From Sphingobium sp. WTD-1 (GTDB lineage: Bacteria > Pseudomonadota > Alphaproteobacteria > Sphingomonadales > Sphingomonadaceae), in contig NZ_CP119127.1 of the NCBI RefSeq assembly GCF_030128825.1, positions 930,001-994,000 of the forward strand: DNA of 64,000 nucleotides. Direction: 5' to 3'. Of the stretch, positions 7,389-27,539 are shown piece after piece. The translations under genes were made by a program, and so were the position numbers. The first letter of the stretch is position 1. Every line of letters starts with the position of its first letter. The notes beneath the pieces are model-generated. The model was not told the origin of the DNA. It did not search any database and worked only from the letters and a program-made list of their open reading frames with translations.

Positions 7389-8357
7389 TCAGAAATTGGC
7401 AGCAACGATCTGTTGGCTGATGCTGCCGAAAGGGAATCTGTTGTTTCCAAATGCGCCGAGCGAAACGCGATCGCCGAATCTGAGGAAAGGCGTTTGGGGT
7501 TTACCTTGCTCGATCATCTCGATCGCGCGGCGTTCGGAGATGCAGCAGGAGCCAAGCGTCGCATAATCGGCATTGGACACGGTGCCTGATCCGATGATTG
7601 TGCCGGCGACCAGATCGCGCGTGCGGGCGGCATGGGCGACCAGTTCATGGAAGCCGAACACCATTTCACTGCCATGGGGATTTCCGAACCAGGCGCCGTT
7701 AACGTGGACCTGCAGGGGCAGATGGACGCGGCCGTCCTGCCAGGCCTCGCCCAGTTCATCGGGCGTGACTGCAAAGGGCGCGACAGAGCAGGCGGGCTTG
7801 GCCTGGACCCAGCCGAACCCGGTCTTCATCTCGATCGGCGCGATCGCGCGCAGCGACCAGTCGTTGATGAGCAGGACCAGCTTGATATGCGATAGCGCGT
7901 CCTGTGCGCTGGTGCCCATCGGCACGGCATCGGTAATGACGCCGAACTCGCCTTCGAAATCGATACCGTCAGCTTCGCTGGGGAGCGGCACATCCTGCGT
8001 TCCGGACAGGAAGCGATCGGACAGGCCCTGATACATGAGCGGCCGGTCGGTCTCGATCGGCGGCAGGTTGAACGCCTTCTGCATCAGTTCGCCATGCTGC
8101 GGGAAGGCCGAACCGTCGAGCCATTGCCAGGCGCGGGGCAGGGGGGCGAGCAGCCGGCTTTCGTCCAGCGCCTCGCCGTCCCCCTGTTCCAGCCGGTCGG
8201 CCAGCCGGCGCAGCGCCGGTTCGACGCTGTCCCATCGCTCGATCGCACACTGCAGCGTGTCAGCAATGCCGTCCGCAGGCAGGCAGCGACAGGCGTCGTG
8301 GGAGACGACGATCAGGCTGCCATCGGGACGGCCATTATCGAGGGTGGCAAGGCGCAT
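7389..8357 (-). CDS. Fumarylacetoacetate hydrolase (FAH) family protein
   Basis: About 322 residues, a metal-dependent hydrolase or hydratase family acting on ring-cleavage products (C-C bond hydrolysis of acylpyruvates, or hydration/decarboxylation of oxo-acids). The start MRLATLDNGRPDGSLIVVS is the classic N-terminus of this subgroup and lies 2 bp after the upstream cyclase stop; a longer frame upstream only shadows the cyclase. Core motifs: IDFEGEFGVI (metal-binding Glu pair), LINDWSLRAI, KPACSVAPFAVTPDELGEAW and GSGTVSNADY. It is the last gene of the minus-strand operon beginning at 12875. A late, aliphatic step of aromatic degradation is likely; the exact substrate is unknown. Confidence 0.88.
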   Translation of the reverse strand: MRLATLDNGRPDGSLIVVSHDACRCLPADGIADTLQCAIERWDSVEPALRRLADRLEQGDGEALDESRLLAPLPRAWQWLDGSAFPQHGELMQKAFNLPPIETDRPLMYQGLSDRFLSGTQDVPLPSEADGIDFEGEFGVITDAVPMGTSAQDALSHIKLVLLINDWSLRAIAPIEMKTGFGWVQAKPACSVAPFAVTPDELGEAWQDGRVHLPLQVHVNGAWFGNPHGSEMVFGFHELVAHAARTRDLVAGTIIGSGTVSNADYATLGSCCISERRAIEMIEQGKPQTPFLRFGDRVSLGAFGNNRFPFGSISQQIVAANF

Positions 8358-8359
8358 CT

Positions 8360-9151
8360 CTATTCCTCGAAGATCGCGACCGCGCGGGTCCAGCCGGCTG
8401 ACGCGCCCTTGATCTTGTGCGGGAAGCAACTGACCATGAAGCCATGGCCGGGCAGGCTTTCCAGATTGTGCAGCTTTTCCAGGTGGCAATAGCCGATGTC
8501 GCGGCCGGCCTTGTGGCCTTCCCAGATCAGCGAGGTGTCGCCGGTTTCCTTCACCTTCTGCGCGGTATAGCTGAACGGCGCATCCCAGGACCAGGCATCG
8601 GTGCCGGTGACGCGCACGCCCCGCTCGGTCAGGTAGATGGTCGCCTCATAGCCCATGCCGCAGCCGCGATTGACATAGTCGGGCTGGCCCAGCGCCGTGC
8701 CGGCCGCGGTGTTGACCAGCACGATGTCGAGCGGCTGGAGGCTGTGGCCAATACGGGCCAGTTCCGCTTCGACATCGGCGGCGGTGACGACATAGCCATC
8801 GGGAAAATGCCGGAAATCGAGCTTCACGCCGGGCTGGAAACACCATTCCAGCGGCACCTCGTCGATCGTGATCGACCGCTGCGGTTCGCCATCGCGGCCA
8901 TCCATGGTGGGATGGAAATGATAGGGCGCGTCCAGATGCGTGCCGTTATGGGTCGTGAGCGTAACCCATTCCGCGGCGGCGAAACCCGCGCCGTCCGGTG
9001 TATCTTCCGCCGTCACGCCAGGAAAAAAATGCTGGAGCTCGGCGACGGTTTCGCCATGCGCCTGGTAGGTGATCTTGGGCCGAAGAAACGGCGGATCGGA
9101 AACCACATCATTGTCGAGCGTGATCGACAGATCGACGAAACGGCGGGTCAT
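8360..9151 (-). CDS. Cyclase / kynurenine-formamidase-like metal hydrolase
   Basis: 263 residues of the cyclase family (PF04199), zinc or manganese hydrolases that open lactones or amides, or act as cyclases. The metal-binding motif is intact: H68-NG-T-H72-L-D74-APYH78, with a further His/Glu-containing block near the C-terminus (LPGHGFMVSCFPHKIKGASA). The N-terminus RRFVDLSITLDNDVVSDPPF is typical. It is translationally close to the FAH gene (2-bp gap) and follows the small membrane protein, so it should be co-transcribed with the ring-cleavage genes. Lactone or enol-ester hydrolysis of a ring-fission product is an inference from position. Confidence 0.87.
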   Translation of the reverse strand: MTRRFVDLSITLDNDVVSDPPFLRPKITYQAHGETVAELQHFFPGVTAEDTPDGAGFAAAEWVTLTTHNGTHLDAPYHFHPTMDGRDGEPQRSITIDEVPLEWCFQPGVKLDFRHFPDGYVVTAADVEAELARIGHSLQPLDIVLVNTAAGTALGQPDYVNRGCGMGYEATIYLTERGVRVTGTDAWSWDAPFSYTAQKVKETGDTSLIWEGHKAGRDIGYCHLEKLHNLESLPGHGFMVSCFPHKIKGASAGWTRAVAIFEE

Positions 9152-9185
9152 CGGGGTATTCCTTGAAAAACGGGATATGATGAAA

Positions 9186-9653
9186 TCATGCGGCCGGAGC
9201 CGCGCGAAGAGCGGGAGGCGTGACGATCAAGGCGAGAATGGCACCATAGGTCGACTTGAAGAGCAGAGCAGGGATTGGGGCGATAATCTCCATACCCGTC
9301 AGCCAGACCAATCCGGCAACCAAAGCTGTGCCGATACCGGCTGATGCCCCTGCCAATACCAGCCCGCGCACCAGCAGATTGCGCGGAAGGATGGTGCTAT
9401 GAGGGACAGGAGCCAAAACGCCCTTTTTGAGCTTTTTGTGGGCGATCGCGCCGGGGATGAGAACGCTCATCAGGGCGATCATGAAGCTCTGTGGCAGAAA
9501 GTCGAACACCCATCGCCCCAAGCCCCAGCTCTCCACCGGCTGGTGGAGGCCAAACACCACAAGGAAGATCAGCAGCGACAGCATGGCGTTGATCGCCATG
9601 CTGATGCGCGTCTCCTTGCGGACATAGGCGTCAATGACCGCCATGCCTGTCAT
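9186..9653 (-). CDS. Small integral membrane protein, unknown function
   Basis: 155 residues with about four hydrophobic helices: residues ~20-37 (SMAINAMLSLLIFLVVFG), ~50-70 (FLPQSFMIALMSVLIPGA), ~93-118 (LLVRGLVLAGASAGIGT) and ~122-150. I do not recognise the family; the layout resembles short hypothetical inner-membrane proteins. Its start overlaps the stop of the upstream hydrolase gene as TAATG, indicating translational coupling. It sits inside the aromatic operon, so a role in substrate entry or membrane association of the pathway is possible but unsupported. Confidence 0.7.
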   Translation of the reverse strand: MTGMAVIDAYVRKETRISMAINAMLSLLIFLVVFGLHQPVESWGLGRWVFDFLPQSFMIALMSVLIPGAIAHKKLKKGVLAPVPHSTILPRNLLVRGLVLAGASAGIGTALVAGLVWLTGMEIIAPIPALLFKSTYGAILALIVTPPALRAAPAA

Positions 9654-10810
9654 TATCGGGCATGCCCGCCTAAGGTCTCGGCGAACCAGTCCGAGATGAG
9701 GTCGCGGCCATAGGCCATATTGTCGGCACCGACATGTTCGACGCCGCCTTCTCGCGCGGTGAAAATGACCTTCTCGCGCCGGGGCGAATTGACCAGCTGA
9801 TCATAGAGATCATCGGCGTAGGAAACGCTGATCTGCCGATCGTCTCCGCCATGAGTGACGAGGAATGGTACCTTGATGCTGTCCATATGGCCATTGAGGT
9901 TCATCGCTTGCGACTTCGTCAGGAAATCCTCCTGATCGCTGGCACCGAACGCCCAATGGACATGCGCCCAATAATGGGGAACCGGGTTCTCGCCCTCGCG
10001 AGACATGCGCTTATCCTGCACTTCGCGCCAATTATGGTTGGCACCCCAGACCGCGCCGCTGGCAAAGCGCGGTTCATAGGCGACGGCGCGCGGCGCGAAA
10101 TGCCCGCCCAGCGAAATGCCGGTCATGCCGATCGCTTTTGGATCGACTTCGGGCTGTTGCTCGAGCCAGTCGACGGCCTTGCTGGCCCAGCTTTCGCTGT
10201 GCGGATCGACAGGGAGGCCTTGCAGTCGCAGCGCTTCGCCTGATCCGGGCTGATCCACGCAAAGGGTAGATATGCCGCGCCGAGCCAGCTGTTCGGGGAG
10301 CCGGCTCCAGTACAGCAATTCCTTGCAGCTATCGAGGCCATTGCAGAACACCACCACGGGCTTCCTGCCGTCGCCGGGCGCGCGGGTGAAAAGCGCGGGC
10401 ATGGTTCCGGTCTCAAGCGGAATTTCAACGCGTTCTCGATTGATCTGGCCAAGCGCAGTCGATCGATCGAAGGCCGTTCGCGCCTTGGCATAGGTCGCCT
10501 CGCGTCCCGGCGCGCCATGCCCCTGCATCCGTTCGGCCGTTATCAGATAGAGCGACGCACGTTCCAGCTTGTTCGAGGCAGAGAAATAGCGCCCCTTGGC
10601 CTCATCTTCACCGGCGAGTTCCAGCAGCTTGTCGCCCATTGCCGCCCAGGCCTTCATGAACTGGGGCGTGCCGGCGTCTGCGCCGCTATTGGCGGCATCG
10701 CGGATCGGCTGACACATGTCGATGATTTCGCCGAGTTGGGCGCCCGACTCCATCGCGATCGAGATCGAGAGGTTCCAGATATAGTTGGGGAAATATTCGA
10801 ACAGCGCCAT
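9653..10810 (-). CDS. Alpha/beta hydrolase (2,6-dihydroxypseudooxynicotine-hydrolase-like)
   Basis: 385 residues. An N-terminal helical region of about 125 residues precedes a complete alpha/beta-hydrolase domain: oxyanion region VVVFCNGLDSCKELLYW, nucleophile elbow G-I-S233-L-G-G, acid Asp in THGGDDRQISVSY and catalytic His in GVEHVGADNMAYGRD. This two-part build matches hydrolases that cut a C-C bond beside an acylated hydroxy-aromatic, of which the pseudooxynicotine enzyme is the known example. It lies between the extradiol dioxygenase and a membrane protein and is 3 bp from the former. Ester hydrolysis remains an alternative. A role in breaking a ring-cleavage product or acyl side chain is inferred. 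Confidence 0.82.
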   Translation of the reverse strand: MALFEYFPNYIWNLSISIAMESGAQLGEIIDMCQPIRDAANSGADAGTPQFMKAWAAMGDKLLELAGEDEAKGRYFSASNKLERASLYLITAERMQGHGAPGREATYAKARTAFDRSTALGQINRERVEIPLETGTMPALFTRAPGDGRKPVVVFCNGLDSCKELLYWSRLPEQLARRGISTLCVDQPGSGEALRLQGLPVDPHSESWASKAVDWLEQQPEVDPKAIGMTGISLGGHFAPRAVAYEPRFASGAVWGANHNWREVQDKRMSREGENPVPHYWAHVHWAFGASDQEDFLTKSQAMNLNGHMDSIKVPFLVTHGGDDRQISVSYADDLYDQLVNSPRREKVIFTAREGGVEHVGADNMAYGRDLISDWFAETLGGHAR

Positions 10811-10813
10811 GGC

Positions 10814-11716
10814 TCAGGCCTCCAACGGCTGGAAGAGGCCCTTGTCGGCCTCGGGATGCGGCATGGTCTGCGGACCACCTGTGCCGATGCCCCACTGATC
10901 CATAACCTTGGGCCCTGGCACATGAACCTGCGGCTGATGTTCCTCGAAATCGACGTCCTCCAGTTCTGAAGTATATTCGACGGCGAAGCCTGCAGGCGTG
11001 GTGAAATAGCTGAACGTATTATTCCCCGCCGTGTGTCGGCCGGGACCCCAGCGGATGTCCGTCCCCTTGAACTTCAGCCGATTGATGCCGACCATCATGT
11101 CATCGACGCTAAGCATGTCGTAGGCGACATGGTTGAGACAGGGAGGCCCCGGAAGGATGGCCAGCCGATGATGGGCAGCATTGCAGCGCAGGAAGCACAT
11201 GAAATCGCCCAGCCAGTCGCTGATCTTGAATCCCAGCACGTCGACGAAGAAGCGCACCAGGGCTTGATGGTCGGGAGAATGAAGGACGATGTGACTGATT
11301 TTCTGCGGGACGCCTTCCCAGCGAGAAAGCGTACGCGCGCTACGGGGCTCGACATCACTCGAAATCTCGAACGGCAGGCCGTCTGGCGAGAAGAAGCGAA
11401 AGCCATAGCCGCCCGCCAGAGTCGCCAGGTTGCGCGGCGGAAAGATGATTCGGCAGCCGGCAGTGACCACCTTGTCATGCAGTGCATCGACATCGGCTTG
11501 GCTTTCGGCGGCAAGAGCGATCACGTCAACGCGACGATCTTCGCTCCCGCGTAGGCGCACGACATAGGGTTCTTCGCCGCCATCGGCCGCAAAATATACC
11601 ATGCCGTCCTTCTCGCCGACTTCGACTAATTTCCATTGATCAGCGTAAAAGCTTCGCTCGGCAGCCAGGTCGGGAACGCCGTAGCCGACATAGCGAATTT
11701 CAGAAACGCGGCTCAT
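10814..11716 (-). CDS. VOC-family extradiol ring-cleavage dioxygenase (type I)
   Basis: 300 residues with two vicinal-oxygen-chelate domains (about 5-125 and 138-255), as in 2,3-dihydroxybiphenyl dioxygenase. The C-terminal domain keeps the Fe(II) ligands H142 (ISHIVLHS), H196 (CLNHVAYD) and E247 (GFAVEYTS). It also keeps the second-sphere residues H182/H183, H228 (GRHT) and Y237 (FSYF). It should therefore insert O2 next to a catechol hydroxyl. It sits directly after the FAD monooxygenase, the usual hydroxylate-then-cleave pair. FdeE and FdeC of the Herbaspirillum naringenin pathway are the analogous pair I recall; orthology is not shown here. Confidence 0.9.
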   Translation of the reverse strand: MSRVSEIRYVGYGVPDLAAERSFYADQWKLVEVGEKDGMVYFAADGGEEPYVVRLRGSEDRRVDVIALAAESQADVDALHDKVVTAGCRIIFPPRNLATLAGGYGFRFFSPDGLPFEISSDVEPRSARTLSRWEGVPQKISHIVLHSPDHQALVRFFVDVLGFKISDWLGDFMCFLRCNAAHHRLAILPGPPCLNHVAYDMLSVDDMMVGINRLKFKGTDIRWGPGRHTAGNNTFSYFTTPAGFAVEYTSELEDVDFEEHQPQVHVPGPKVMDQWGIGTGGPQTMPHPEADKGLFQPLEA

Positions 11717-11759
11717 CAGATAACTCCTTGGGTAAATGCATGGGAGGCGGACTGCCGCC

Positions 11760-12875
11760 TCAGATCGGCTCGGCGATCATCTCGAACATTTCATGGGTGG
11801 CCGCCGCGTTATCGACAGGCGGCCCCTTGCCGATTTGACCGTGGCAGATGGCAAGGCTGGCACGCACGATATAGGCGCACCGTTCGAACCGACGGGCATG
11901 ATAGGCTTCAAAAACGCTCTCCAGAGCGTCATGATTGGAGAGTTCATCGGCCAGGACCAGGCTGTCTTCGATCGCCATACCCGCGCCCTGTCCCAGATGC
12001 GGCGTGGTCGCGTGGACTGCGTCTCCCAGCAGGACGATCCTGCCCTTGTGCCATGGCCCTTCGACCAGCAGGCCTTCCAGTGGGCGGTAGACCACGGCGC
12101 TATCTTGTGTGATCTCTTGCGCCAGCGCCTGAATGGCTGGCGCGGTCCCCGAAAGCTTGGCACGCATGACCGCTGCCAGTCCTTCGAGCGGATAGCGCGG
12201 ATTGTCGGGTTCGGGCGTCGTCGCATACATGTACATGAGCGCGTCCGAAATGGGCACGAGACCAACGCCGATAGGGCCGTTATAGACTTGCAGCGCATCA
12301 AGCTCGGCCGGGCGGGCGAAATTGTAACGCCACACGGCCTGGCCAGTGAATTGGGGCTTGGGTGCATCGGGGAAAATGAGGTCGCGCGTCTGCGAATAGA
12401 CGCCGTCCGCACCTACAACCAGATCATAGCGATCGCTGCCGCCATCCGAAAAATCGACAGTCACGCCGTCGGCTCCGTCGACGATGCGCTCGGCTGTTAC
12501 GCCAAGCCGAACGGTCGCACCGCTGGACAGCGTACGATCACCCAGAACATTGTGGAGCGCTGGGCGACCGATGCCGACATTGGCGGGCTTCCCTTCGACC
12601 AGTCGCGGCGAAGGGACACGGGCAATCTTCGCCCCGTTAGGAAGGAAGATCTCGATCGCGTCGAAGCCGACTCCTGCCGACAAATAATCGTCGAGAAGGC
12701 CGAGCTGCGCCATCGCCCGAACAACATTGGATTGCTGGATGATGCCGACGCCATAAACAGACCAGTCAGGGTCACGTTCGATAACATCGACCTGATGCCC
12801 CTTGGCGCGCAGGGCGATCGCAGCCGTCAGGCCCCCGATACCGCCGCCAATGACCAATATGCGCTGCGCTTCCAA
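11760..12875 (-). CDS. FAD-dependent aromatic monooxygenase (PHBH/salicylate-hydroxylase type)
   Basis: 371-residue class A flavoprotein monooxygenase that uses NAD(P)H and O2 to hydroxylate a phenolic ring. The three diagnostic motifs are present: the dinucleotide fold ILVIGGGIGGLTAAIALRAK near residue 6, the DG motif LVVGADGVYSQTR near 157, and the GD motif IVLLGDAVHATTPHLGQGAG near 285. It is probably the first structural gene of the minus-strand operon, with AT-rich promoter-like sequence in 12876-12956. It is likely to make the ortho-diol cleaved by the next gene product. Substrate identity cannot be read from the sequence. Confidence 0.9.
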   Translation of the reverse strand: MEAQRILVIGGGIGGLTAAIALRAKGHQVDVIERDPDWSVYGVGIIQQSNVVRAMAQLGLLDDYLSAGVGFDAIEIFLPNGAKIARVPSPRLVEGKPANVGIGRPALHNVLGDRTLSSGATVRLGVTAERIVDGADGVTVDFSDGGSDRYDLVVGADGVYSQTRDLIFPDAPKPQFTGQAVWRYNFARPAELDALQVYNGPIGVGLVPISDALMYMYATTPEPDNPRYPLEGLAAVMRAKLSGTAPAIQALAQEITQDSAVVYRPLEGLLVEGPWHKGRIVLLGDAVHATTPHLGQGAGMAIEDSLVLADELSNHDALESVFEAYHARRFERCAYIVRASLAICHGQIGKGPPVDNAAATHEMFEMIAEPI

Positions 12876-12956
12876 GTCTCGCTCTCCTCCAATTTGTTCT
12901 GGGGAGAGTTTAGGACGCGCTTTTCAATATCAAAATTCGATTGTTTGGATCATAGT

Positions 12957-13871
12957 TTATCCATTTTGTGGATTAGTTGCTATCCGTCGCAATTGTTCTC
13001 GAAACCAGAAAAGCCCTTCGTCAGCAGCGCGGGTCTGATGAAACTGCACCAACTCCTGCATCACCGGGAAGGCAAAGGGCATCGGCACCGATGTGAGCGG
13101 AAAAAGGCGCATGGCCGCCCGTGCAAGACGTTCGTGCATGACCGCCAGCCGCTGGGTGCCCACCAGCAGCCAGGGAACCGTTGTGAATGACGAAGCCGAG
13201 ATTTCGATCCGGCGATGCTTGCCCATCAGCGCGAGATGTCGATCGGCAAAAGCTATATTGGAACGCGAGCCAATGGCGACGCCGATGTGGCCCGCGCCCA
13301 GGAAGCGCGCTTCGTCGAGTGGCGTCTGGAGCAAGGGGTTGTCCTCCCACCCGACTACGACATGCTCTTCCTCGAACAGCAATTCTGTTGGATGATCGGC
13401 TGAGAGAAATTCGCGCGGACTGATCATCAGATCCGCCTTGCCATCACCGATCAGTTCGGAGCTGTGCTGATCAGGCGATATCAGTTGCAGCCTTACGCCG
13501 GGGGCCAAGTTGGAAAGGTCGGCCATCAAGGGAGCGACAAGCGCTGTGATCACATAGTCGGACGCGATGACCTTGAAGGTCCGCTGCGAGTTGGCAGGAT
13601 CGAAGGAGGCCGACGTTGCGAGCAAGGTTTCAATCCCGCCCAGGCATTCGCGCACCAGCGGCGCCAGGCTTTCTGCAAAGGCGGTCGGGTACATCCGCTT
13701 GCCGTGGGTCACCAACAGAGGGTCACCGAAATAGTCACGCAGCCTGGACAGGGCAGCACTCATGGCGGGCTGGCTCAGATGCATCTGCCGCGCCGCGCCG
13801 GACACCGAATGCGTTTGCATGAGCCCTTCGAAGACAGCGAGAAGATTGAGGTCGAGACCGCGGAAACGCAT
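12957..13871 (-). CDS. LysR-family transcriptional regulator 1
   Basis: 304 residues. The N-terminal winged HTH (LDLNLLAVFEGLMQTHSVSG, AARQMHLSQPAMSAALSRLR) is followed by a periplasmic-binding-like effector domain, of the NodD/NahR-like branch common beside aromatic pathways. It lies upstream of, and in the same direction as, the monooxygenase operon, and is divergent from the TonB receptor at 13996. It is well placed to control both. The 124-bp intergenic region contains ATCC and GGAT arms around 13872-13892 that could be a LysR site. Confidence 0.9.
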   Translation of the reverse strand: MRFRGLDLNLLAVFEGLMQTHSVSGAARQMHLSQPAMSAALSRLRDYFGDPLLVTHGKRMYPTAFAESLAPLVRECLGGIETLLATSASFDPANSQRTFKVIASDYVITALVAPLMADLSNLAPGVRLQLISPDQHSSELIGDGKADLMISPREFLSADHPTELLFEEEHVVVGWEDNPLLQTPLDEARFLGAGHIGVAIGSRSNIAFADRHLALMGKHRRIEISASSFTTVPWLLVGTQRLAVMHERLARAAMRLFPLTSVPMPFAFPVMQELVQFHQTRAADEGLFWFREQLRRIATNPQNG

Positions 13872-13995
13872 GATCCATCCATTCCATGATTGGATAACGA
13901 TAAGATCAAATGATTTAACCTATGGACCATAACTGATCTACTCTTTCCTCACAGATGCGTCGGAATAGGCGCGCACATCAGGAGAGGAGACAGGC

Positions 13996-16278
13996 ATGAA
14001 GGCGGCCCTACTGGCGACAGCTGCAGCGATATTCATCCCGGTTACGCCGGCCTTGGCACAGGAGCAGGGCAGCGGCGAGGAAGTGCAGGCCGAGGTGTCC
14101 GGCATCGCCGACATCATCGTCACAGCGCAGCGGCGTAGCGAAAATTTGCAGAAGGCCGCGATCGCGGTCAGCGCAGTGGCCGGGGATACGCTCGTCAAGC
14201 AAAGCATCACCCAGGCCAATGATCTCACCCGGGTCGTGCCCGCGCTCCAGGTGGCGCCTGCGGCGTCCTTCACCCAGATCTATCTGCGCGGCGTCGGCAC
14301 CTTTGGCGCCAATGCCTTTGCGGAGCAGGGCGTCGCCTTCAATCTCGATGGCGTTTATCTGTCTCGCCCAGCTGCACCGGCCGGGCTCTTCTATGATCTT
14401 GAGCGCGTCGAGGTGCTCAAGGGCCCGCAGGGCACGCTTTATGGTCGCAACGCCACCGGCGGCGCCGTCAACGTGATCACCGCCAAGCCCAAGCTTGGTG
14501 AGACGTCGGGCTATATCAACGCGGAATATGGCAATTACGATGCCATCAAGGGTTCGGCCGCGCTCAACCTGCCCCTGGGCGAGAAGCTCGCTTTGCGTGT
14601 TGCAGGCCAATATGTGAAGCGCGTCGGCTATTACAGCGATGGCTATGATGACGAGGATACCCAGGCCGTCCGCGCCCAATTGCGTGGCGAGACTGGCACT
14701 GGCCTCGATGCCACCTTGTCGGTCGATTATGCGCATGTGGGCGGAATGGGCTCGGGCGGCACGATCATGCCGCTGCTCGACGGGAAGCATCGGCTCGGGC
14801 CCAGCGATCCCCGTGTCATCGCCGCCTATGTAGCTCGCTCGCCAACGCCGCCGGTCCCCCAGGCGATCGCCAGCGATGATGGCTATCAGGATAATGACTT
14901 CTTCGGCGCAGCGCTGACGCTCAACGCGGATCTCGGCTTTGCGACGCTCACCGTCATTCCCGCCTATCGCAAGACGGATCTCGACTTTCGCTCCTATGCC
15001 TCGAGTTTCCTGATCGACGTCCAGGAAAAGTCGAGCCAGATGTCACTCGAGACCCGACTGGGCGGGCATAGCGGCCCCCTCGAATGGGTCGTTGGCGGCT
15101 ATTATTTCGGCGAAGATGTGAGCGCCCGGCAGCTATTCGACCAGGCCAGCAATGGCACTCGGATCAACTCGGAACTGGAAACCGAAAGCCTCGCGGCCTT
15201 CGGTCAGGCGACTTTTTCGGTAACCGACAGATTCCGGCTGACAGGCGGGCTGCGTTACACAACCGATGCGAAACGCCAGGCAACCGAGGCGCATACGCTT
15301 CCCTTCGTCGGTTTCGTCAATCCCGCGCAGGGTAACTTCACCCCGATCATTCTCGACATCGTCAGCTATCCGCGCACCGACGTGGATTTCAACAAGGTTA
15401 CATGGAAGGCGGGCGTGGAATATGACGCCGGACCGCGTTCGTTGCTGTACGCGTCGGTTGCCACCGGTTTCAAATCGGGCGCGCTGTTTGCGGCGACGGG
15501 GCGCAACTATTCAGCGCCGGAAAACATGACCGCCTACACCATCGGCTCGAAGAATCGCTTCTTCGACAATAAGGTTCAGCTGAACGCGGAAGCGTTCCTC
15601 TGGAAATATGAGGACCAGCAGATTTCGCATCTGGGCCCGGTCCAGATTGCCAGCACGCCGGCAGGCGCGATCTATGGTCCGGTCTTCACCACTGAAAATG
15701 CGGGCAAGTCGACCATCTACGGTCTTGAACTGGAGGCACTATTCCAGCCGACGAGCAATGACCAGTTTTCAGCCAATATCCAGTATCTGCACAGCAAATA
15801 TGATGAGCTGACCTATCAGGCCTATTCGACGACCGGCACGGCGCCCGTCATCGGCTGCGCGGTGACCCCCACGAGCCAGACCGGCGCTTCGCCCGCTGCC
15901 CGCATCTATGATGTGGATTGTTCGGGCCGACCGCTGGTCAACGCGCCCAGGTGGGTGTTCAATCTGGGCTATGAACATAGCTTCCAGCTTGGCGATCATG
16001 GCAAGCTGATTGCGGCAGCTGATACACGGATCGAAACGTCCCGCTATCTCTCGCTCGATTTCCTCGAGCTGGGACGGCAGGGCTCCTACATGATGTCCAA
16101 TGCGCGGCTCACCTACGAAAGCCCGTCGGGCAATTTCTCCCTGACCGGCTTCATCAACAATATTGAGAATGAGCTGGTGTTTGCCAATTCGCTGCAGAGT
16201 CCGGCGAAGCCCGGCGTCATTTACAACCAGCTGAGGCCGCCCCGCACCTATGGCGTGCGCGCCGGTTTCCGCTTCTAG
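13996..16278 (+). CDS. TonB-dependent outer-membrane receptor 1
   Basis: 760 residues. A signal peptide (MKAALLATAAAIFIPVTPALA) precedes a plug domain with the family opening DIIVTAQRRSENLQ and the plug signature GPQGTLYGRNATGGAVNVIT, then a 22-strand-type barrel ending in the outer-membrane signature GVRAGFRF. It imports a ligand across the outer membrane using TonB/ExbBD energy, none of which is encoded here. AGGAGAGG lies just before the ATG. Placement between two LysR genes and beside ring-cleavage genes suggests the ligand is the aromatic substrate or its glycoside. Confidence 0.93.
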   Translation: MKAALLATAAAIFIPVTPALAQEQGSGEEVQAEVSGIADIIVTAQRRSENLQKAAIAVSAVAGDTLVKQSITQANDLTRVVPALQVAPAASFTQIYLRGVGTFGANAFAEQGVAFNLDGVYLSRPAAPAGLFYDLERVEVLKGPQGTLYGRNATGGAVNVITAKPKLGETSGYINAEYGNYDAIKGSAALNLPLGEKLALRVAGQYVKRVGYYSDGYDDEDTQAVRAQLRGETGTGLDATLSVDYAHVGGMGSGGTIMPLLDGKHRLGPSDPRVIAAYVARSPTPPVPQAIASDDGYQDNDFFGAALTLNADLGFATLTVIPAYRKTDLDFRSYASSFLIDVQEKSSQMSLETRLGGHSGPLEWVVGGYYFGEDVSARQLFDQASNGTRINSELETESLAAFGQATFSVTDRFRLTGGLRYTTDAKRQATEAHTLPFVGFVNPAQGNFTPIILDIVSYPRTDVDFNKVTWKAGVEYDAGPRSLLYASVATGFKSGALFAATGRNYSAPENMTAYTIGSKNRFFDNKVQLNAEAFLWKYEDQQISHLGPVQIASTPAGAIYGPVFTTENAGKSTIYGLELEALFQPTSNDQFSANIQYLHSKYDELTYQAYSTTGTAPVIGCAVTPTSQTGASPAARIYDVDCSGRPLVNAPRWVFNLGYEHSFQLGDHGKLIAAADTRIETSRYLSLDFLELGRQGSYMMSNARLTYESPSGNFSLTGFINNIENELVFANSLQSPAKPGVIYNQLRPPRTYGVRAGFRF

Positions 16279-16292
16279 TCGATCCCAAATCC

Positions 16293-16323: not shown

Positions 16324-16336
16324 GTCAGGAGAATAT

Positions 16337-18748: not shown

Positions 18749-18764
18749 GAAACTGATCCAGCAT

Positions 18765-18788: not shown

Positions 18789-18836
18789 TGGCTGGCGGCG
18801 CGCTAGGCTTTCCTGAGAATAAGACAGGAGAGCGAT

Positions 18837-19904: not shown

Positions 19905-19910
19905 GGGCAT

Positions 19911-19938
19911 GGGATAGGGGCGATGATGCTCCTATCCC
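19911..19938. terminator. Hairpin between convergent oxygenase and tetR genes
   Basis: GGGATAGG / CCTATCCC, an 8-bp perfect stem lying exactly between the two convergent stops and overlapping the tetR stop. A short pyrimidine-rich tail follows on +. It may serve as a bidirectional terminator; the T run is weak. Confidence 0.45.
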
Positions 19939-20582: not shown

Positions 20583-20680
20583 TATCTTCCTTCATGACGG
20601 GATGCGGGCGCCAGGCGCCTGCAACCATCCTCCATTATCTATGATGCCCGACCGGATGCATAACAAAAATGGATCGAAAC

Positions 20681-20714
20681 CCATACAAACAATCAGGATT
20701 GACTGTTTGTATGG
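20681..20714. promoter_or_regulatory. Inverted repeat, probable TetR operator
   Basis: CCATACAAACA (20681-20691) and its exact complement TGTTTGTATGG (20704-20714), separated by 12 bp. It lies between the divergent tetR gene and the TonB receptor/glycosidase genes, 58 bp before the receptor start. It is the only long perfect dyad in the gap. Confidence 0.7.
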
Positions 20715-20772
20715 CAAAGACCAAAGCGGTCTGCAAGTGCAGGACGAGCTGCGCAAAAATAGGGAGGATGAA

Positions 20773-23100
20773 ATGCGGAAGGCACTGTTGTTTGTTGGCG
20801 CGAGCCTGATCTCCGTCGCCCATACAGCCCATGCACAGGAAACCGCGCAGAACGAGGGCGTGACCGACATCGTCGTGACCGCGCAACGTCGCGCCGAACG
20901 GCTTCAGGATGTCCCTGTAAGCGTGACGGCCCTCGGCGGCGACTCGCTAAAGTCGCGCAACCTCAATGATCTGACCCAGGTCGCGCTGGCGGCGCCCAGC
21001 CTCCAGGTCGGCAATGACAACAGCTTTGCCATTCGCGGGGTCGGCACCCAGGCCTTCGCAACCACCATCGATTCCAGCGTGGCCACCGCGCTCGATGACG
21101 TCAATCTGGGTCGCCCCTTCCTCACGCAAGGGCTTTTCAACGACGTTGAGCGGGTCGAGGTTCTGAACGGGCCGCAAGGGCTTCTCTTTGGCAAAAATGC
21201 CTCGGCAGGACTTCTGAACGTCGTGTCGACCCGTCCCAAGCTCGGCAGTTTCGGCAGCGAGACCAACCTCGAGCTCAACAATCGCAGCACGCCGGGCAGC
21301 GATACGGAGGCCTGGTCCGTGATTGCGCGACAGACTGTCAATATTCCTGTCGGCGACACCGCAGCATTGCGGATCAACGGAACTTATTCCGTGGAAGAGC
21401 CAGGCACCAATTTCGTTGGTACCGGCGGTGTCCGCAACGACCTGGATCGCAAGCAATATGGGGTTCGCGCCAAATATCTCCAGGAGATCACGCCTGAGCT
21501 CGAGCTTTATGTCATCGGCGAATATGCAGAATCTCACGGTGTCGCGGGCATCTATGACCGCACCTATCGCGAGCTTGGCGAGGGAAGTGTCAATGCAGCC
21601 CCGCTTGCAGCATCCGGCATCGTTCCAGGCGACAAGAATTTCACCTTCGCGGGCGACGGCGGATATTGGCGTGACCTGAAACTGGGTGGCGCCCAGGCTT
21701 CGCTCTCCTACACCGCGGACAGCGGCCTCGTCGTAAGCAATATCTTCGCCTGGAAATTCTATAATTTCGACGCCCAGCTCGATACCGACTTCACCAACAG
21801 CAACGGCGCGAACATCAACTATTCCCATGCCGATTATGATCAGTTTTCGAACGAACTGCGCGTAGCGCTGCCGGCCGGAAACCGCCTGACGGGACAGGCC
21901 GGCCTCTATTATTTCCATTCGACGATCGATCAGCGCAGTCAGATTGCTGGCAATAATTATCTGCCCGACTTCCTGCTGCCGACATTCCCCTTCTGCGTCG
22001 GCGCCGCTGCAGTGCCCGGCGCCTTCCCTCCCACCTGCTCGGTCAGCAATGATTATTTCCTCGGGCGGGACAACAGCTATCGGATGAAGACCGACAGCTA
22101 TGCTGCATTCGGGCAGTTGACCTACGCCCTGACGGATGCGCTGAAACTCTTCGCTGGCGGCCGCGTCACGCGCGACGAAATCAGCATCGATCTTGACCAG
22201 AATCGCGGCGCCTATTTCGTGACCCTGGGCGTGCCCGGCGCGATCGCGCAATCCTATGGGCATACCGATTTCAGCTGGCGCACGGGCGGCCAATTTCAGC
22301 TGGCGCGCGATGCGATGATCTACGCCTCCTATGGTCGGGGCTATAAGGGCCCCGGCTTCAATGATACCGGAGCAACCGCGACGACCTCGCTGCTGGTCAA
22401 GCCGGAAAAATCGAACACTGCGGAAATTGGCGCCAAGACGAGCTGGTTCAATCGTCGCCTCGTGGTCAACGCATCACTCTTCCATACGAAATTCAAGAAT
22501 TACCAGACCCAGTCGCTCGACACCCAGTTGCAGAGCTTCGTGGTCCAGAACGCGGCGTCGGTCATCAGCAAGGGCGTCGAGCTGACCGTCAATGCCAACC
22601 CGTTCCGGGGACTCTCTATCAACGGATCGGCGACGTTCCTCAGCTCCAAGTTCAAGGATTTTGCGGGCGCGGAATGTTATCCGGGGCAAACCGACGCCAG
22701 CTGCGCAACAAGCGGTTCGTTCAATGCCGGCGGCAAGCGCACGCCGACCGCCCCGAAATTCACCTCGTCGCTCCAGGCCAGCTACGAGTTCCAGACGGAC
22801 GGAGCCGTACATCCCTTTATCGAGGGCAACTGGTACCATCGCACGCCGATAAATTATCTGATCAACCAGGCGCCGGGCGCCACCGTGCCGACGACCGATC
22901 TGATCGGCGCGAGTGCAGGCGTGCGGATCGACAATGGCATGCGCCTCTCGATCTTCTGCAAGAACTGCACGAACGAATATAATCCCAACTTTATCGGACT
23001 GGATTCCGGCGACGCGATCTCCGGGATCGCCACCTATCAGCAGCAATTCGGGTTCGATTCCGTGCGCACCATCGGCGCCAACATTCAGTTCCGGTTCTGA
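20773..23100 (+). CDS. TonB-dependent outer-membrane receptor 2
   Basis: About 775 residues. Signal peptide MRKALLFVGASLISVAHTAH-AQ, family opening DIVVTAQRRAERLQDVPVSV, plug signature GPQGLLFGKNASAGLLNVVS, and a beta-barrel ending TIGANIQFRF. I chose the ATG at 20773 because it has GGGAGGATGA upstream and begins a clean signal peptide; the frame is open further upstream through the operator, which cannot be coding. Two exported glycosidase genes follow at once, so the likely cargo is a glycoside or the product released by periplasmic or surface hydrolysis. The gap to the next gene is 2 bp. Confidence 0.92.
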   Translation: MRKALLFVGASLISVAHTAHAQETAQNEGVTDIVVTAQRRAERLQDVPVSVTALGGDSLKSRNLNDLTQVALAAPSLQVGNDNSFAIRGVGTQAFATTIDSSVATALDDVNLGRPFLTQGLFNDVERVEVLNGPQGLLFGKNASAGLLNVVSTRPKLGSFGSETNLELNNRSTPGSDTEAWSVIARQTVNIPVGDTAALRINGTYSVEEPGTNFVGTGGVRNDLDRKQYGVRAKYLQEITPELELYVIGEYAESHGVAGIYDRTYRELGEGSVNAAPLAASGIVPGDKNFTFAGDGGYWRDLKLGGAQASLSYTADSGLVVSNIFAWKFYNFDAQLDTDFTNSNGANINYSHADYDQFSNELRVALPAGNRLTGQAGLYYFHSTIDQRSQIAGNNYLPDFLLPTFPFCVGAAAVPGAFPPTCSVSNDYFLGRDNSYRMKTDSYAAFGQLTYALTDALKLFAGGRVTRDEISIDLDQNRGAYFVTLGVPGAIAQSYGHTDFSWRTGGQFQLARDAMIYASYGRGYKGPGFNDTGATATTSLLVKPEKSNTAEIGAKTSWFNRRLVVNASLFHTKFKNYQTQSLDTQLQSFVVQNAASVISKGVELTVNANPFRGLSINGSATFLSSKFKDFAGAECYPGQTDASCATSGSFNAGGKRTPTAPKFTSSLQASYEFQTDGAVHPFIEGNWYHRTPINYLINQAPGATVPTTDLIGASAGVRIDNGMRLSIFCKNCTNEYNPNFIGLDSGDAISGIATYQQQFGFDSVRTIGANIQFRF

Positions 23101-23102
23101 GG

Positions 23103-24419
23103 ATGGATGATATGCCCTTTGCCCTCTCCCGCCGCTCCATGCTGCAACTTGCCGGCGGGAGTCTTGCGATGACGCTTGCCAGTCCTGCGCTCGCCGCGCG
23201 TCGCAAGCTGCGTCCTGATTTCCTTTGGGGGGCAGCTACCGCCGCCCACCAGGTGGAAGGCAATAATGTCAACAGCGACAGCTGGGTCATGGAGCATCTC
23301 AAGCCCAACAGCTTCGCCGCGCCGTCCGGCGATGCCTGCGACAGCTATCATCGCTGGCGCGAGGATATGGCACTCGTCAAGCAGATGGGCCTCAACTGCT
23401 ATCGCTTCGGCATCGAATGGTCGCGCATCGAACCGGAGCAGGGAGAGTATTCCAACGCTGAACTCGACCATTATCGCCGAATGGTGGATGGATGCGTCGA
23501 GCTGGGCCTGAAGCCCTTCATCACCTACTCGCACTTTACCGTCCCGCGCTGGTTCGCAGCAAAGGGCGGGTGGGAAGAGCAGACGAATGTCGATCATTTC
23601 CTGCGCTTTTGCGAGCGGGCGGCCAAGGCGCTGGGGCCGAACTATAGTCATGGGCTTACCTTCAACGAGCCCAATCTGGCCGCCCAACTGTCATGGCAGC
23701 CCGGTTTTCGCGCAACCATGCCTTATTTCGTTCAGGCTTCGGCGGCAGCCGCCAAGGCTGTGGGCAGTGACCGTTTTTCCTCCACGCCGATTTTCGATGT
23801 CCGTCGTGCCGGCCCGATACAGGCGGAGGCTCATCGCCGCGCCGTCGAGGCGATCAAGTCGGTGCGCCCCGATCTGAAATTGGGGCTGAGCCTTTCCGTT
23901 GCTGACGAGCAATCTGCTCCGGGCGCGAACGGGTTGGAACGCAAGATTGCGGAGGTCTATGCGCCCTGGTTCGAAGCGGTTGCCAAGGATGATTTCGTGG
24001 GTGTCCAGACCTATGGCCGGGCCGTGGTTGGCAATGATATCGACTTGCCGCCAGCATCTGGCGTAGAACTAACGCAAACCGAGATGGAGTTCTATCCACA
24101 GGCACTTGAAGCCACGGTGCGCTGGGTCTCCAAAGCCACCAAACGCCCGATCATCGTCACGGAGAATGGCGTGGCGACCGCCGATGACGGCCGCAGGATC
24201 GCCTATATCGACGGGGCGCTTGCGGGCCTTTCTCGAGCGATCGTAGATGGCGTGGATGTTCGCGGCTATATCCATTGGTCGCTGCTCGATAATTTCGAGT
24301 GGAACAGGGCCTATACGGCACAATTCGGCCTGGTCGCCGTCGACAGGACGAGCTTCCGCCGCACATTGAAGCCAAGCGGCTTGCATCTTGGCCGGTACGC
24401 GCGAGACAACAGTATCTAA
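23103..24419 (+). CDS. GH1 beta-glucosidase, exported (Tat-type signal)
   Basis: 438 residues. The twin-arginine leader has S-R-R-S-M-L-Q-L at residues 9-16, a hydrophobic core and ASPALA cleavage near residue 31. The GH1 fold is recognisable by FLWGAATAAHQVEG, the acid/base E189 in TFNEP and the nucleophile E354 in TENG, with the conserved YIHWSLLDNFEW near the end. It should release terminal beta-glucose from an aryl or flavonoid glucoside in the periplasm. It lies 2 bp after the receptor and 45 bp before the rhamnosidase, so the pair could strip rutinose- or neohesperidose-type sugars. GH1 also includes beta-galactosidases and other specificities. Confidence 0.92.
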   Translation: MDDMPFALSRRSMLQLAGGSLAMTLASPALAARRKLRPDFLWGAATAAHQVEGNNVNSDSWVMEHLKPNSFAAPSGDACDSYHRWREDMALVKQMGLNCYRFGIEWSRIEPEQGEYSNAELDHYRRMVDGCVELGLKPFITYSHFTVPRWFAAKGGWEEQTNVDHFLRFCERAAKALGPNYSHGLTFNEPNLAAQLSWQPGFRATMPYFVQASAAAAKAVGSDRFSSTPIFDVRRAGPIQAEAHRRAVEAIKSVRPDLKLGLSLSVADEQSAPGANGLERKIAEVYAPWFEAVAKDDFVGVQTYGRAVVGNDIDLPPASGVELTQTEMEFYPQALEATVRWVSKATKRPIIVTENGVATADDGRRIAYIDGALAGLSRAIVDGVDVRGYIHWSLLDNFEWNRAYTAQFGLVAVDRTSFRRTLKPSGLHLGRYARDNSI

Positions 24420-24464
24420 CCCGTTCCCTCGCCCGACGCCTATTGATTTTCCAAGGATCTGCCT

Positions 24465-27400
24465 ATGCCCATATTCGATCGTCGTTCCTTCATGGCGACC
24501 AGCGCATTTTTGGGCCTAAGCGCCAATCAGGCACGGGCCGCATCGACGTTGCGGTTCGGCGCCACGCAGCTGCGTACCGCCATGCGGAAAAATCCGATCG
24601 GAATCGACGACCGGCATCCCAGCCTCTCCTGGCGGGTCGCTGGCCCTGACGAAACGATGCAGTCGGCATATCGCATTCTCGTCGCGTCCAGTTCGTCTTT
24701 GCTTGGCCGCAATGTCGGCGACATATGGGACAGTGGTCGCATCGAAGGTGCCGCCTGCACGGGCATCCAGTATGAAGGCAGACCCTTGCGCTCGCGCGAA
24801 ACCTGCCACTGGAAAGTGCAGGTCTGGAATGAAAAGGGAAATACCGGCTGGAGCGACCCGGCTTATTGGGAAATGGGCCTTCTCGAGGCGAAGGACTGGA
24901 CGGGTGACTGGCTGGCCGCAGAAGATGCAGTCGAGCGCGAAGACCGGCTCAGCGGTGTCCAATGGGTGGGCGGCAACGCCCCTGCGCCCGACAAGCCGCG
25001 CAGCTTTCGTCTCGCCTTTCGCAGCGATGCAGGCGACGCGCTGCTGACCATCTTCGGCGATGGCGTGATGTCACGGCTGGAACTCGACGGCAAACCACTC
25101 GCCTTGCCTGCGCGCGATCCCAATGCTTTTGGCGGCGCGCCTGCAACACGCCTCGCCTTGCAGCTCCCGGCCGGTGATCATCTGCTTAGCCTGGATATTG
25201 CGCCTGCACCGGGCTTCTTCATCAAGCCATTCGTCTCGATTGCCGGGCAGATCCGTCTTCCTGCATTGAATGGCTCGAGCAAACGGTTGAGCGGCAACTG
25301 GGAAACCCGCCTGGGCGAGGCAGAGAACTGGGTGGTGGCGCCGCTGCTGGACACACAGCCAATTTTCCCCTGGCCTCCCACGCCGGCAAGATTGCTGCGG
25401 CGCAGATTCTCCAACGATGGTGCGATCGTCCAGGCCCGGCTCTATGCGGCAGCGCTTGGCGGCTATCGCCTGTCGCTCAACGGGCGCCGGGTCAATGACG
25501 ATGAACTGCAGGCAGAGCCCGTCAATTACGCCGTTCGCATTCCCTACCGCGCTTATGATGTTACCAATTTGATCCAAAAGGGCACCAACTGCCTCGGTGC
25601 TGTGATCGGCGATGGCTATTATGCGAGCTACCAGGCGCCTGACGGTCGCTATGCATTTGGCAGCGCGCCCCGGCGACTGCAATTGATGCTAGAACTGACC
25701 CGGTTCGACGGCTCGATCGAACGGATCATCACCGACAACCAATGGCGCCATGCGCGCGCGCCCATCTTGATGTCGGAAATTTATGCCGGCGAAGACCAGG
25801 ATTTGCGATCGCAGTCCCAGGGCTGGGATCGTCCGGACTTCGACGACAGCAAATGGGATCGGTGCTGGACGGCGCCGACCCCAATTGCCCCGATTTCGGC
25901 GGCACTTGCCGAGCCGGTACGCATCATCAGGCAACTGCCGCCAGTCGCCATTCGCAAGCTTGGGGACGCCCGGCATATTGTCGACTTCGGCCAGAATTTT
26001 GCGGGTCGCGTGCGGCTTCAGGTCAAGGGCGTTGCAGGGCAGCCGATCACCGTGCGCCATGCTGAAATCTTGTCCGAGCAGGGCGAGCTCGACCGTCGGA
26101 ACCTGCGGGCGGCAAGGGCGGAAGATCGCTACTGGCTGCGCGGGGACGGATCGGAGACGCTCGAACCCGTCTTCAGTTACCAGGGCTTCCGGTATGCGGA
26201 GATCAGCGGGGTCAGCACGCTGACTTCGGACATGATCGCTGGCCTGGTCCTTTCGAGCGCCATGCCTGAAACCGGGACGTTTCAGATCAGCACCCCGGAC
26301 GTCCAGAAGCTCTGGCTGAATACGCTGTGGAGCCAACGCTCGAACTTCATGGGAATTCCGACCGATTGCCCGCAACGTGACGAGCGGCTGGGCTGGACCG
26401 GCGATGCCCAGATTTTCTGGGATGCAGCCAGCTTCAACATGGATGTCGGCGCCTATACACGCGCCTTTTCCCGCACGATGCGGGACGCGCAGGCCGGCAA
26501 CGGCGCTTACCCACTTTGGGCTCCTTCTCCGCAGGGCCTGGGCTGGGGCACCGACAGCCCAACCCCAGGCTGGGCCGATGCCGGTGTCATGCTCCCCTAT
26601 ACCGCCTATCTGCACAGCGGCGATCGCACGATCGTCGACGAGAATTGGCAGGCGATGACCGCTTATGCGCAGGGCATATTCGCAAAAAATCCCGATGGCC
26701 TGTGGTCGACAGGGCGTGGAGCAGATCTTGGCGACTGGCTTGCGCTCGATGCGAAGTCGCCGATGGACGAGACGACCCCCAAGGCGCTGATCGCTACAGC
26801 CATGCTTGCTCGCTCCGTGGAGCAGATTGCGCAGATGGCGGAATGGACGGGCCGCGCTGGCGAGGCCGTAACCTGGCGCGCGCATCATGATCGAATCCGC
26901 AGCGCTTTCGCATCGACCTTTGTTCGTGATGACGGAAGAGTCGGAAACGGCAGCCACTGCAGTTATATTCTGGCGCTCCGGCTCAATCTGGTTCCGCAGG
27001 CGCTTCGCGCGAAAGCCGCCTCGCTCTTGGCGGCAGATATTCGCAAGCGTGGAACGCTGCTCACAACGGGGTTCCTTGGCACGCCGCTGGCGCTCGATGC
27101 GCTGGTCGATGTGGGAGAAACTCGGCTCGCTTTCGATCTGCTGCTGCGCACGGAATTTCCTTCCTGGGGCTATATGGCGCGCAAAGGCGCCACCACGATA
27201 TGGGAGCGGTGGAATGGCGACACCGGCGATGTCGCGATGAACAGCTTCAATCACTATGCGCTGGGTGCCGTCTGCGGCTTTCTCTACCGGCGAGTGTGCG
27301 GTATCGAACCTGTCGAACCGGGCTTCGCGCGGTTCCGCGTTGCCCCAGTCTTTGACGCTCGAGTGCCAGAGGTAAGCACGAAACTGGTAAGCGTCAGGGG

Positions 27401-27539
27401 ATTGATTGAGACCCGATGGACCTATCACGCAAACGCTGTGAAGCTTGAGCTGACGGTGCCTGCAAATAGCCGGGCGGATATTGCTTTACCTCACGGTCTG
27501 CGCACCGTGGGACCAGGCGATCATCGCTTTATAATATAG
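24465..27539 (+). CDS. GH78 alpha-L-rhamnosidase, exported
   Basis: 1024 residues. A Tat-like leader (FDRRSFMATSAFLGLSANQ-ARA) is followed by the GH78 arrangement: N-terminal beta domains (RHPSLSWRV, YRILVASS, WDSGRIE), a central domain with YRLSLNGRRVND and GDGYYASYQ, then the (alpha/alpha)6 barrel. The catalytic signature is TDCPQRDERLGWTGDAQIFW with probable general acid E640, then GDWLALDAKSPMDETTP and GATTIWERWNGDTGD. It removes terminal alpha-L-rhamnose from plant glycosides. Length is normal for the family. It is the last gene of the TetR-controlled operon. No rhamnose catabolic genes are visible in the window. Confidence 0.93.
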   Translation: MPIFDRRSFMATSAFLGLSANQARAASTLRFGATQLRTAMRKNPIGIDDRHPSLSWRVAGPDETMQSAYRILVASSSSLLGRNVGDIWDSGRIEGAACTGIQYEGRPLRSRETCHWKVQVWNEKGNTGWSDPAYWEMGLLEAKDWTGDWLAAEDAVEREDRLSGVQWVGGNAPAPDKPRSFRLAFRSDAGDALLTIFGDGVMSRLELDGKPLALPARDPNAFGGAPATRLALQLPAGDHLLSLDIAPAPGFFIKPFVSIAGQIRLPALNGSSKRLSGNWETRLGEAENWVVAPLLDTQPIFPWPPTPARLLRRRFSNDGAIVQARLYAAALGGYRLSLNGRRVNDDELQAEPVNYAVRIPYRAYDVTNLIQKGTNCLGAVIGDGYYASYQAPDGRYAFGSAPRRLQLMLELTRFDGSIERIITDNQWRHARAPILMSEIYAGEDQDLRSQSQGWDRPDFDDSKWDRCWTAPTPIAPISAALAEPVRIIRQLPPVAIRKLGDARHIVDFGQNFAGRVRLQVKGVAGQPITVRHAEILSEQGELDRRNLRAARAEDRYWLRGDGSETLEPVFSYQGFRYAEISGVSTLTSDMIAGLVLSSAMPETGTFQISTPDVQKLWLNTLWSQRSNFMGIPTDCPQRDERLGWTGDAQIFWDAASFNMDVGAYTRAFSRTMRDAQAGNGAYPLWAPSPQGLGWGTDSPTPGWADAGVMLPYTAYLHSGDRTIVDENWQAMTAYAQGIFAKNPDGLWSTGRGADLGDWLALDAKSPMDETTPKALIATAMLARSVEQIAQMAEWTGRAGEAVTWRAHHDRIRSAFASTFVRDDGRVGNGSHCSYILALRLNLVPQALRAKAASLLAADIRKRGTLLTTGFLGTPLALDALVDVGETRLAFDLLLRTEFPSWGYMARKGATTIWERWNGDTGDVAMNSFNHYALGAVCGFLYRRVCGIEPVEPGFARFRVAPVFDARVPEVSTKLVSVRGLIETRWTYHANAVKLELTVPANSRADIALPHGLRTVGPGDHRFII

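Follow-up and report, generated by a model that had tools for sequence, protein, structure and literature searches.

The 64-kb window analyzed here, the whole stretch G000:C1:930001-994000 of the 5.67 Mb genome of Sphingobium sp. WTD-1, contains a gene block at 7389-27539 in which two TonB-dependent receptors (TBDR1 and TBDR2) and glycosidases of families GH1 and GH78 stand beside a ring-cleavage module resembling the fde naringenin pathway of Herbaspirillum. With a probability of roughly two in three, we read this block as a cassette that would catabolize plant phenolics bearing rhamnosyl-glucosyl groups and a flavonoid-type A ring. Plant flavonoids mostly occur as glycosides, and the candidate substrates would be rutinosides or neohesperidosides of flavanones, flavones or flavonols. 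Family matches recovered every gene named in the initial annotation, namely the two receptors, GH1, GH78, a Rieske oxygenase, a flavin monooxygenase (FMO), an extradiol dioxygenase (EDO), an alpha/beta hydrolase (ABH), a cyclase, an FAH-family hydrolase and the LysR/LysR/TetR regulators. Three further genes, for a 155-aa protein, a cupin and an NAD-dependent epimerase/dehydratase, are also present (Table 1). Read on the minus strand from 13871, the order is LysR1, FMO, EDO, ABH, the small protein, cyclase and FAH. The plus strand from 13996 carries TBDR1, cupin and epimerase, followed by the divergent pairs LysR2 (minus)/Rieske (plus) and TetR (minus)/TBDR2-GH1-GH78 (plus).

The FMO is classed by sequence as an FdeE-like group A flavin monooxygenase. 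It is 37-46% identical to the FdeE-type group, the comparison with FdeE being made through related Herbaspirillum copies (41-43% identity) and not H. seropedicae FdeE itself. In a tree it lies in a separate sphingomonad clade beside the FdeE-type clade. The tree input consisted of the window, 9 of the 11 plasmid loci L002-L012 (without L009 and L010), 25 of 80 genome-contig loci and 10 fetched regions; one of the 45 rows (L016, with a stop in the matched stretch) was removed, leaving 44. The hydrolase, cyclase, cupin, FAH and epimerase of the window are assigned to an fde-type downstream set, in which the position letters B and F-J are inferred from gene order. How widely this set recurs was seen in the best 80 of 434 genome-contig loci retrieved with a Burkholderia-type dioxygenase, some of them short, in which the window genes were scored by best match at a coverage above 60%. 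ABH and FMO were each matched in 77/80, cyclase in 64/80, FAH in 63/80, epimerase in 47/80 and cupin in 45/80. The window-type EDO was matched in just 6/80, and at E <= 1e-8 neither GH1 nor GH78 was matched in any of the 80 loci. Plasmid pKN1 of Sphingobium yanoikuyae carries LysR1 to FAH together with the TonB receptor, cupin and epimerase at 83-98% protein identity. Four further sphingomonad plasmids carry the module with losses and changes, and wider relatives are found on a conjugative plasmid of Burkholderia anthina and in Azospirillum sp. B510.

In the sugar half, five rhamnosidase domains of the GH78 protein score over their cut-offs, and its E640 and E914, which correspond in the alignment to residues 636 and 895 of 3w5m, are taken to be the catalytic glutamates. 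The GH1 protein has the catalytic motifs NEP and TENG; its score of 246 bits against the beta-glucosidase equivalog TIGR03356 is below the cut-off of 478.5. On these motifs and domains the two are assigned as a GH78 alpha-L-rhamnosidase and a GH1 beta-glycosidase. The twin-arginine (Tat)-type N-termini of both proteins are conserved, with variation, in five relatives, as are the catalytic motifs; in G041 the TENG motif of GH1 is not matched exactly. The host genome has one GH78 gene by PF05592, to which PF17389 adds two weak matches of 22-23 bits. The Rieske protein has a VanA_C domain and the cluster ligands CxH...CxxH in its Rieske domain, and its best PDB relative is dicamba O-demethylase. 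The protein is thus an oxygenase alpha subunit of the VanA/DdmC type, and may be an O-demethylase.

The association of the two halves was quantified in a genus sample of 94 genomes, in which the positions of FMO and GH78 were compared and linkage was defined as a distance within 20 kb. Two of the 35 FMO matches were left out of the count, G081:C69 being partial and G035 having 49% identity. Among the 10 FMO loci at 81% identity or above, 8 had GH1 and GH78 within 20 kb of the module (G000, which is the window's own locus, G038, G036, G041, G057, G026, G081 and G077). None of the 23 loci at 62-74% identity, scored for GH78 only, had GH78 within that distance, although draft contig ends may hide linkage. 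The contrast gives a Fisher p of 3e-6, uncorrected for kinship and with the window included. G038 and G036 retain the entire gene order, and G041 and G057 retain it minus cupin and epimerase at ~68-89% protein identity. TBDR1, GH1 and GH78 stand in a row opposite LysR1-FMO in G026 and G081. The LysR1/receptor promoter is conserved in G077, where the start of TBDR1 runs into GH1-GH78. The halves therefore co-occur in more than one layout, and the preservation of gene order in other genomes indicates that the block is more than a chance assembly. These results support the view that the glycosidase and ring-cleavage genes form a recurrently linked set. The initial annotation had proposed a single pathway from glycoside to aliphatic products; the linkage supports this in part, and the substrate is unproven.

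A family sample of 347 genomes, including our own and a few of the same genus, was scored with the best 5 FMO and 2 GH78 candidates per genome. FMO was found at E <= 1e-150 in 39 genomes and GH78 at E <= 1e-180 in 17. No linked pair occurred in this sample beyond our own genome; G141 and G277 have both genes on different contigs. An operator shared by both halves was also considered. The 9-mer CAAACAATC occurs just twice in the window, once upstream of the monooxygenase and once upstream of TBDR2. It was discarded as evidence because 121 of 2000 shuffled promoter pairs also share a same-strand 9-mer, so that the sharing is not significant, and because distant relatives retain just AACAATC at TBDR2.

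The earlier proposal of a mobile island holds. The last 18 bases of the tRNA-Met gene (2061-2078) are repeated at 61328-61345, which gives an island of ~59.3 kb. With the integrase next to the tRNA gene and the 3'-end direct repeat at the far border, we class it as a tRNA-integrated genomic island; a MobA/MobL relaxase lies inside. The block itself is common to two genomes of the same genus at 87-93% DNA identity, with differing flanks. With G038 the similar stretch spans 7223-27660, ending on both sides inside the fetched DNA and nearly coinciding with the limits first proposed for the block; with G036 it spans 7298-27531 and is interrupted at 9154-9675. Similarity to pKN1 runs from 7291 to 17875 and ends just after the epimerase. 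From these differing borders, the cassette behaves as a unit in changing surroundings whose halves are also separable. It is flanked by two identical, inverted 1322-bp copies with Mutator-type transposases (5702-7023 and 32001-33322). In composition the cassette does not stand out, its GC content being 60-61% against 61-62% in the remaining island. Likely start codons were assigned by reading. Those of FAH (ATG at 8357, likelier than the TTG at 8489 where the open reading frame begins), cupin (16337) and epimerase (16888) agree with the pKN1 annotation; for TBDR2, with an open reading frame from 20551, the ATG at 20773 is likelier.

Table 1. Positions of the island, its mobility genes and the genes of the block in the window.
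Feature	Position	Strand	Remarks
Integrative island	2061..61345	.	~59.3 kb; 18-bp tRNA-Met 3'-end repeats, integrase, MobA/MobL
tRNA-Met	2002-2078		
Phage-type integrase	2192-3466		after tRNA-Met
FAH-family hydrolase, fdeI-position homologue	7389..8357	-	PF01557/PF18288; 50-60% to FAH of fde-like clusters
Cyclase-family hydrolase, fdeG-position homologue	8360..9151	-	PF04199; mostly 75-80% identity in fde-like clusters
155-aa protein, hydrophobic by eye	9186..9653	-	some sphingomonad copies only; no family match in Pfam and NCBIfam scans
ABH, C-C-bond-hydrolase type, fdeB-position homologue	9653..10810	-	FrsA-like and other families; 51-56% in fde-like clusters
EDO, 3b59 subfamily	10814..11716	-	two-domain VOC, PF00903; 497 bits to PDB 3b59
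Group A FMO, FdeE-like	11760..12875	-	NF005313 475 bits, cut-off 372
LysR1 regulator	12957..13871	-	PF00126/PF03466; divergent from TBDR1, codirectional with monooxygenase
LysR1/TBDR1 divergent promoter region	13872..13995	.	near-invariant block in alignment of 9 copies
TBDR1	13996..16278	+	PF00593/PF07715
Cupin, fdeH-position homologue	16337..16891	+	PF07883; 39-50% in fde-like clusters
NAD-dependent epimerase/dehydratase family oxidoreductase, fdeJ-position homologue	16888..17817	+	PF01370; 34-42% in fde-like clusters
LysR2 regulator	17804..18748	-	PF00126/PF03466; divergent from Rieske gene
Rieske oxygenase alpha subunit, VanA/DdmC type, possible O-demethylase	18837..19904	+	PF19112, PF00355; 183 bits to DdmC
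TetR-family regulator	19932..20582	-	PF00440
TBDR2	20773..23100	+	PF00593/PF07715
GH1 glycosidase	23103..24419	+	Tat-type N-terminus SRRSMLQ; PF00232 7e-68; PDB relative 6ier
GH78 alpha-L-rhamnosidase	24465..27539	+	Tat-type N-terminus DRRSFMA; PF17389 + four further rhamnosidase domains
MobA/MobL relaxase	44269-47196		inside island

How might such a cassette work? Uptake of the glycoside into the periplasm would be the task of the TonB receptors. There, Tat-exported GH78 would take off L-rhamnose and GH1 glucose, and the aglycone would pass to the cytoplasm. The FdeE-like FMO would hydroxylate the A ring beside an existing hydroxyl, and the 3b59-type EDO would open the hydroxylated ring. The C-C hydrolase, which carries the motif GISLGG, the cyclase and FAH, joined in the window copy by the cupin and the oxidoreductase, would degrade the product and free the B-ring part for the protocatechuate route of the host. 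For methoxylated members such as hesperetin, O-demethylation by the Rieske enzyme is conceivable, though a guess. In this scheme we infer the substrate, the positions of hydroxylation and cleavage, the compartments, the role of the Rieske enzyme and the ligands of the regulators. Outside the block, the genome has a 285-bit match to the LigB family, consistent with 4,5-cleavage of protocatechuate. It also has a hydrolase of the L-rhamnose route, 2,4-didehydro-3-deoxy-L-rhamnonate hydrolase, at 542.6 bits against the NCBI cut-off of 500. Plasmid pR1a of Sphingomonas R1 has pobA and ligAB in the vicinity of the module, which is what release of a 4-hydroxyphenyl B ring would lead one to expect. 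Since the genes identified in the block include no inner-membrane transporter, no B-ring or rhamnose gene and no Rieske reductase (for which no search was made elsewhere in the genome), the initial description of the system as complete was too strong.

Several points weigh against a flavonoid glycoside cassette. The sugar half and the Rieske gene are under regulators of their own, and the 9-mer gives no sign of shared control. Although the FMO and the downstream genes are fde-like, the FMO-EDO pair is not that of fde as had been suggested: the EDO was rejected as an FdeC ortholog, being 28% identical to the FdeC-type enzyme of L007 (B. anthina) when three FdeC-type enzymes are 67-72% identical among themselves. 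Neither the window nor five sphingomonad plasmid loci contained a match (E <= 0.01) to the FdeD-type ferredoxin, the FdeA-type protein or the MFS transporter of B. anthina; L007 and L008 as well as four Herbaspirillum loci do have the FdeD-type ferredoxin. The substrate or chemistry may therefore differ from that of fde. Cupin and epimerase are retained in G038 and G036 and had no match in eight related cassettes (G026, G041, G044, G045, G057, G077, G079 and G081), so that neither belongs to the core of the coupled system. On five plasmids the ring-cleavage module stands without glycosidase neighbours of the GH1/GH78 kind, so that rhamnosides are not its sole context. Two of the 10 close FMO loci are unlinked, G044 and G045, the latter with GH78 ~510 kb off on the same contig. 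The GH78 of G057 and that of G081 are each split between two frames, and in G079 (L147, G079:C5:2904788-2919866) the sugar half is kept, FMO is lost and only pieces of EDO, ABH and TBDR1 are left, which makes L147 a decayed copy. No activity data were found for any sphingomonad copy. Finally, disruption of the hydrolase gene of the isoflavone (ifc) cluster left daidzein degradation unaffected (excerpts of PMC11069340), and the ABH step is therefore to be held loosely.

The differing EDO and the missing FdeD could also be explained if the same cassette served another rhamnoglucosylated aromatic of the resorcinol or phloroglucinol type, such as a dihydrochalcone, acyl-phloroglucinol, coumarin, stilbene or isoflavone glycoside; both features would then reflect that aglycone. 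The PDB relatives of the ABH, namely Yg1, 2,6-dihydroxypseudooxynicotine hydrolase, AbyA5 and AntI, presumably act on acylated aromatic or polyketide ketones and would suit such a substrate. The ifc monooxygenase IfcA illustrates how narrow such enzymes can be (excerpts of PMC11069340). However, the cyclase and the remaining downstream set match those of fde-like clusters, which argues for the same ring-cleavage intermediates as in fde, and we consider this alternative unlikely, if a serious one.

Could the halves instead be two unrelated systems joined by transposition, an aglycone pathway under LysR1 and a TetR-controlled scavenging of saponins or other rhamnosides? The separate regulators, the end of pKN1 similarity just past the epimerase and the frequent occurrence of the module without GH78 would fit such a history, and GH78 and GH1 families also serve saponins (excerpts of PMC10653915). 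Yet the linkage recurs in most of the close loci and is tighter in G026, G081 and G077, where GH1-GH78 follow TBDR1 or its remnant opposite LysR1. Because G041 and G057 keep the window's layout (minus cupin and epimerase) at such divergence, the linkage is no recent accident, and two unrelated systems appear improbable to us. It is very improbable that the target of the ring-cleavage genes is not a plant phenolic but the ring of a xenobiotic, steroid or N-heterocycle: the EDO resembles BphC, HsaC and catechol 2,3-dioxygenase models at the family level, and the best PDB matches of the FMO include 6-hydroxynicotinate 3-monooxygenase, but the NCBIfam scores of the EDO as a steroid, biphenyl or catechol-type enzyme are far below the curated cut-offs, and the whole gene set is fde-like.

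The reading as a flavonoid glycoside cassette can be sharpened, more tentatively, into a self-contained mobile cassette that would convert methoxylated flavonoid rutinosides of the hesperidin/diosmin type to ring-opened acids, with an independently recruited non-FdeC EDO lineage and an FdeD-free FMO. We regard this version as conceivable with the odds somewhat against it; if true, PDB 3b59 and its close relatives would gain a natural substrate.

Individual copies and the rest of the island have features of their own. Two or three such FMO copies at 66-81% identity are found in G041, G046, G057 and G081, perhaps for different aglycones. G026 has tandem dioxygenase genes (L139, 14507-16298), a 77% partial copy preceding the full one. 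On the plasmid of Sphingobium TomTYG65 (L003) the module lies near an annotated beta-glucosidase, a GMC oxidoreductase, an AP endonuclease, a xylose isomerase and an oxidoreductase, which may represent a different glycoside-cleaving partner. The Pseudomonas CIP-10 plasmid (L010) has the order hydrolase-dioxygenase-FAH-cyclase with no FMO match in the stretch, and an LLM flavin oxidoreductase, an FMN reductase and a GH3 gene nearby. Elsewhere on the island, a second sugar locus at 49726-58647 comprises a GH36 alpha-galactosidase, a TonB receptor, a LacI regulator and an MFS transporter. Three consecutive tyrosine recombinase genes at 38177-41378 are, as we take it, typical of a recombinase-in-trio element. 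Possibly defence-related proteins are HEPN/nucleotidyltransferase-like (42018-43007), CHAT-domain (34011-35075) and AAA_13 (27903-29477).

The impression that the arrangement was undescribed is in line with, though not proved by, the open-access matches listed, none of which describes this sphingomonad cluster or a linked GH78-GH1-fde arrangement. Term searches found no mention of flavonoids, naringenin, luteolin, quercetin or rutin in PMC8386446 (clover exudate, N. HR1a), and no fde or enzyme terms in PMC4440368 (H. seropedicae RNA-seq). The fde and ifc clusters, the genetically described aerobic A-ring routes that we found, are described from the aglycone onward. If our reading is true, the cassette would be a route that starts further out, at the rhamnoglucoside, and is carried on DNA passed between strains; it would also supply an enzyme set for debittering or flavonoid modification.

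The fde pathway of H. seropedicae SmR1 was compared via the Herbaspirillum loci L074, L083, L087 and L092, not strain SmR1 itself. All four, the only Herbaspirillum loci among the 80, have the order LysR, transporter, ABH, EDO, Rieske ferredoxin, FMO and MFS. L074, L087 and L092 continue with cyclase, cupin, FAH and epimerase, and L083 stops at a contig end; in L074 an EthD-type gene precedes the epimerase and the transporter match is weak and partial. We regard these loci as the Herbaspirillum fde operon, since their order agrees with the descriptions of FdeA as a phenol-degradation-type protein, FdeD as a Rieske carrier and FdeE as an FMO (excerpts of PMC8552027) and of FdeC as glyoxalase-type beside FdeE (excerpts of PMC11069340). 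The FdeE-like FMO, C-C hydrolase, cyclase, cupin, FAH, epimerase and an adjoining LysR are common to fde and the window. In contrast with fde, the window has an EDO of another subfamily, is without the FdeD ferredoxin, the FdeA-type protein and the MFS, and adds the TonB receptors, GH1, GH78, the VanA-type Rieske enzyme, TetR and a second LysR.

The ifc cluster of Variovorax sp. V35 shares the logic of monooxygenase, VOC dioxygenase, hydrolase and cupin. According to the same excerpts (PMC11069340), its FMO makes 8-hydroxydaidzein and is inactive on isoflavone glycosides, and its cupins act on a later ring-opened product. Whereas ifc has an FdeC-type dioxygenase, that of the window is 3b59-type. 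The FMO of the ifc-like Variovorax locus L150, compared here in place of V35's own IfcA, is 34% identical to the window FMO, less than the FdeE-type enzymes are; it is 30-37% identical to both FMO groups and sits on a long tree branch with unsure placement. The ifc-like loci L150 and L151 gave no match to the window GH1 or GH78. A GH78 rhamnosidase is shared, in the same genus by name, with the tomato-root Sphingobium RC1, whose saponin glycosidases are paired with steroid-catabolizing genes (excerpts of PMC10653915), whereas those of the window accompany an aromatic ring-opening set. The nearest named relatives of the window EDO are from Sphingobium. Its closest solved counterpart is PDB 3b59, which bears only the molecule name 'glyoxalase/bleomycin resistance protein/dioxygenase', with no function in it, and presumably comes from Novosphingobium aromaticivorans. 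The match extends across the full 300 residues, and the conserved active-site region, which we take to contain the metal-binding residues, aligns with both 3b59 and BphC. If the cassette acts as we propose, this solved and functionally unnamed dioxygenase structure would acquire a function.

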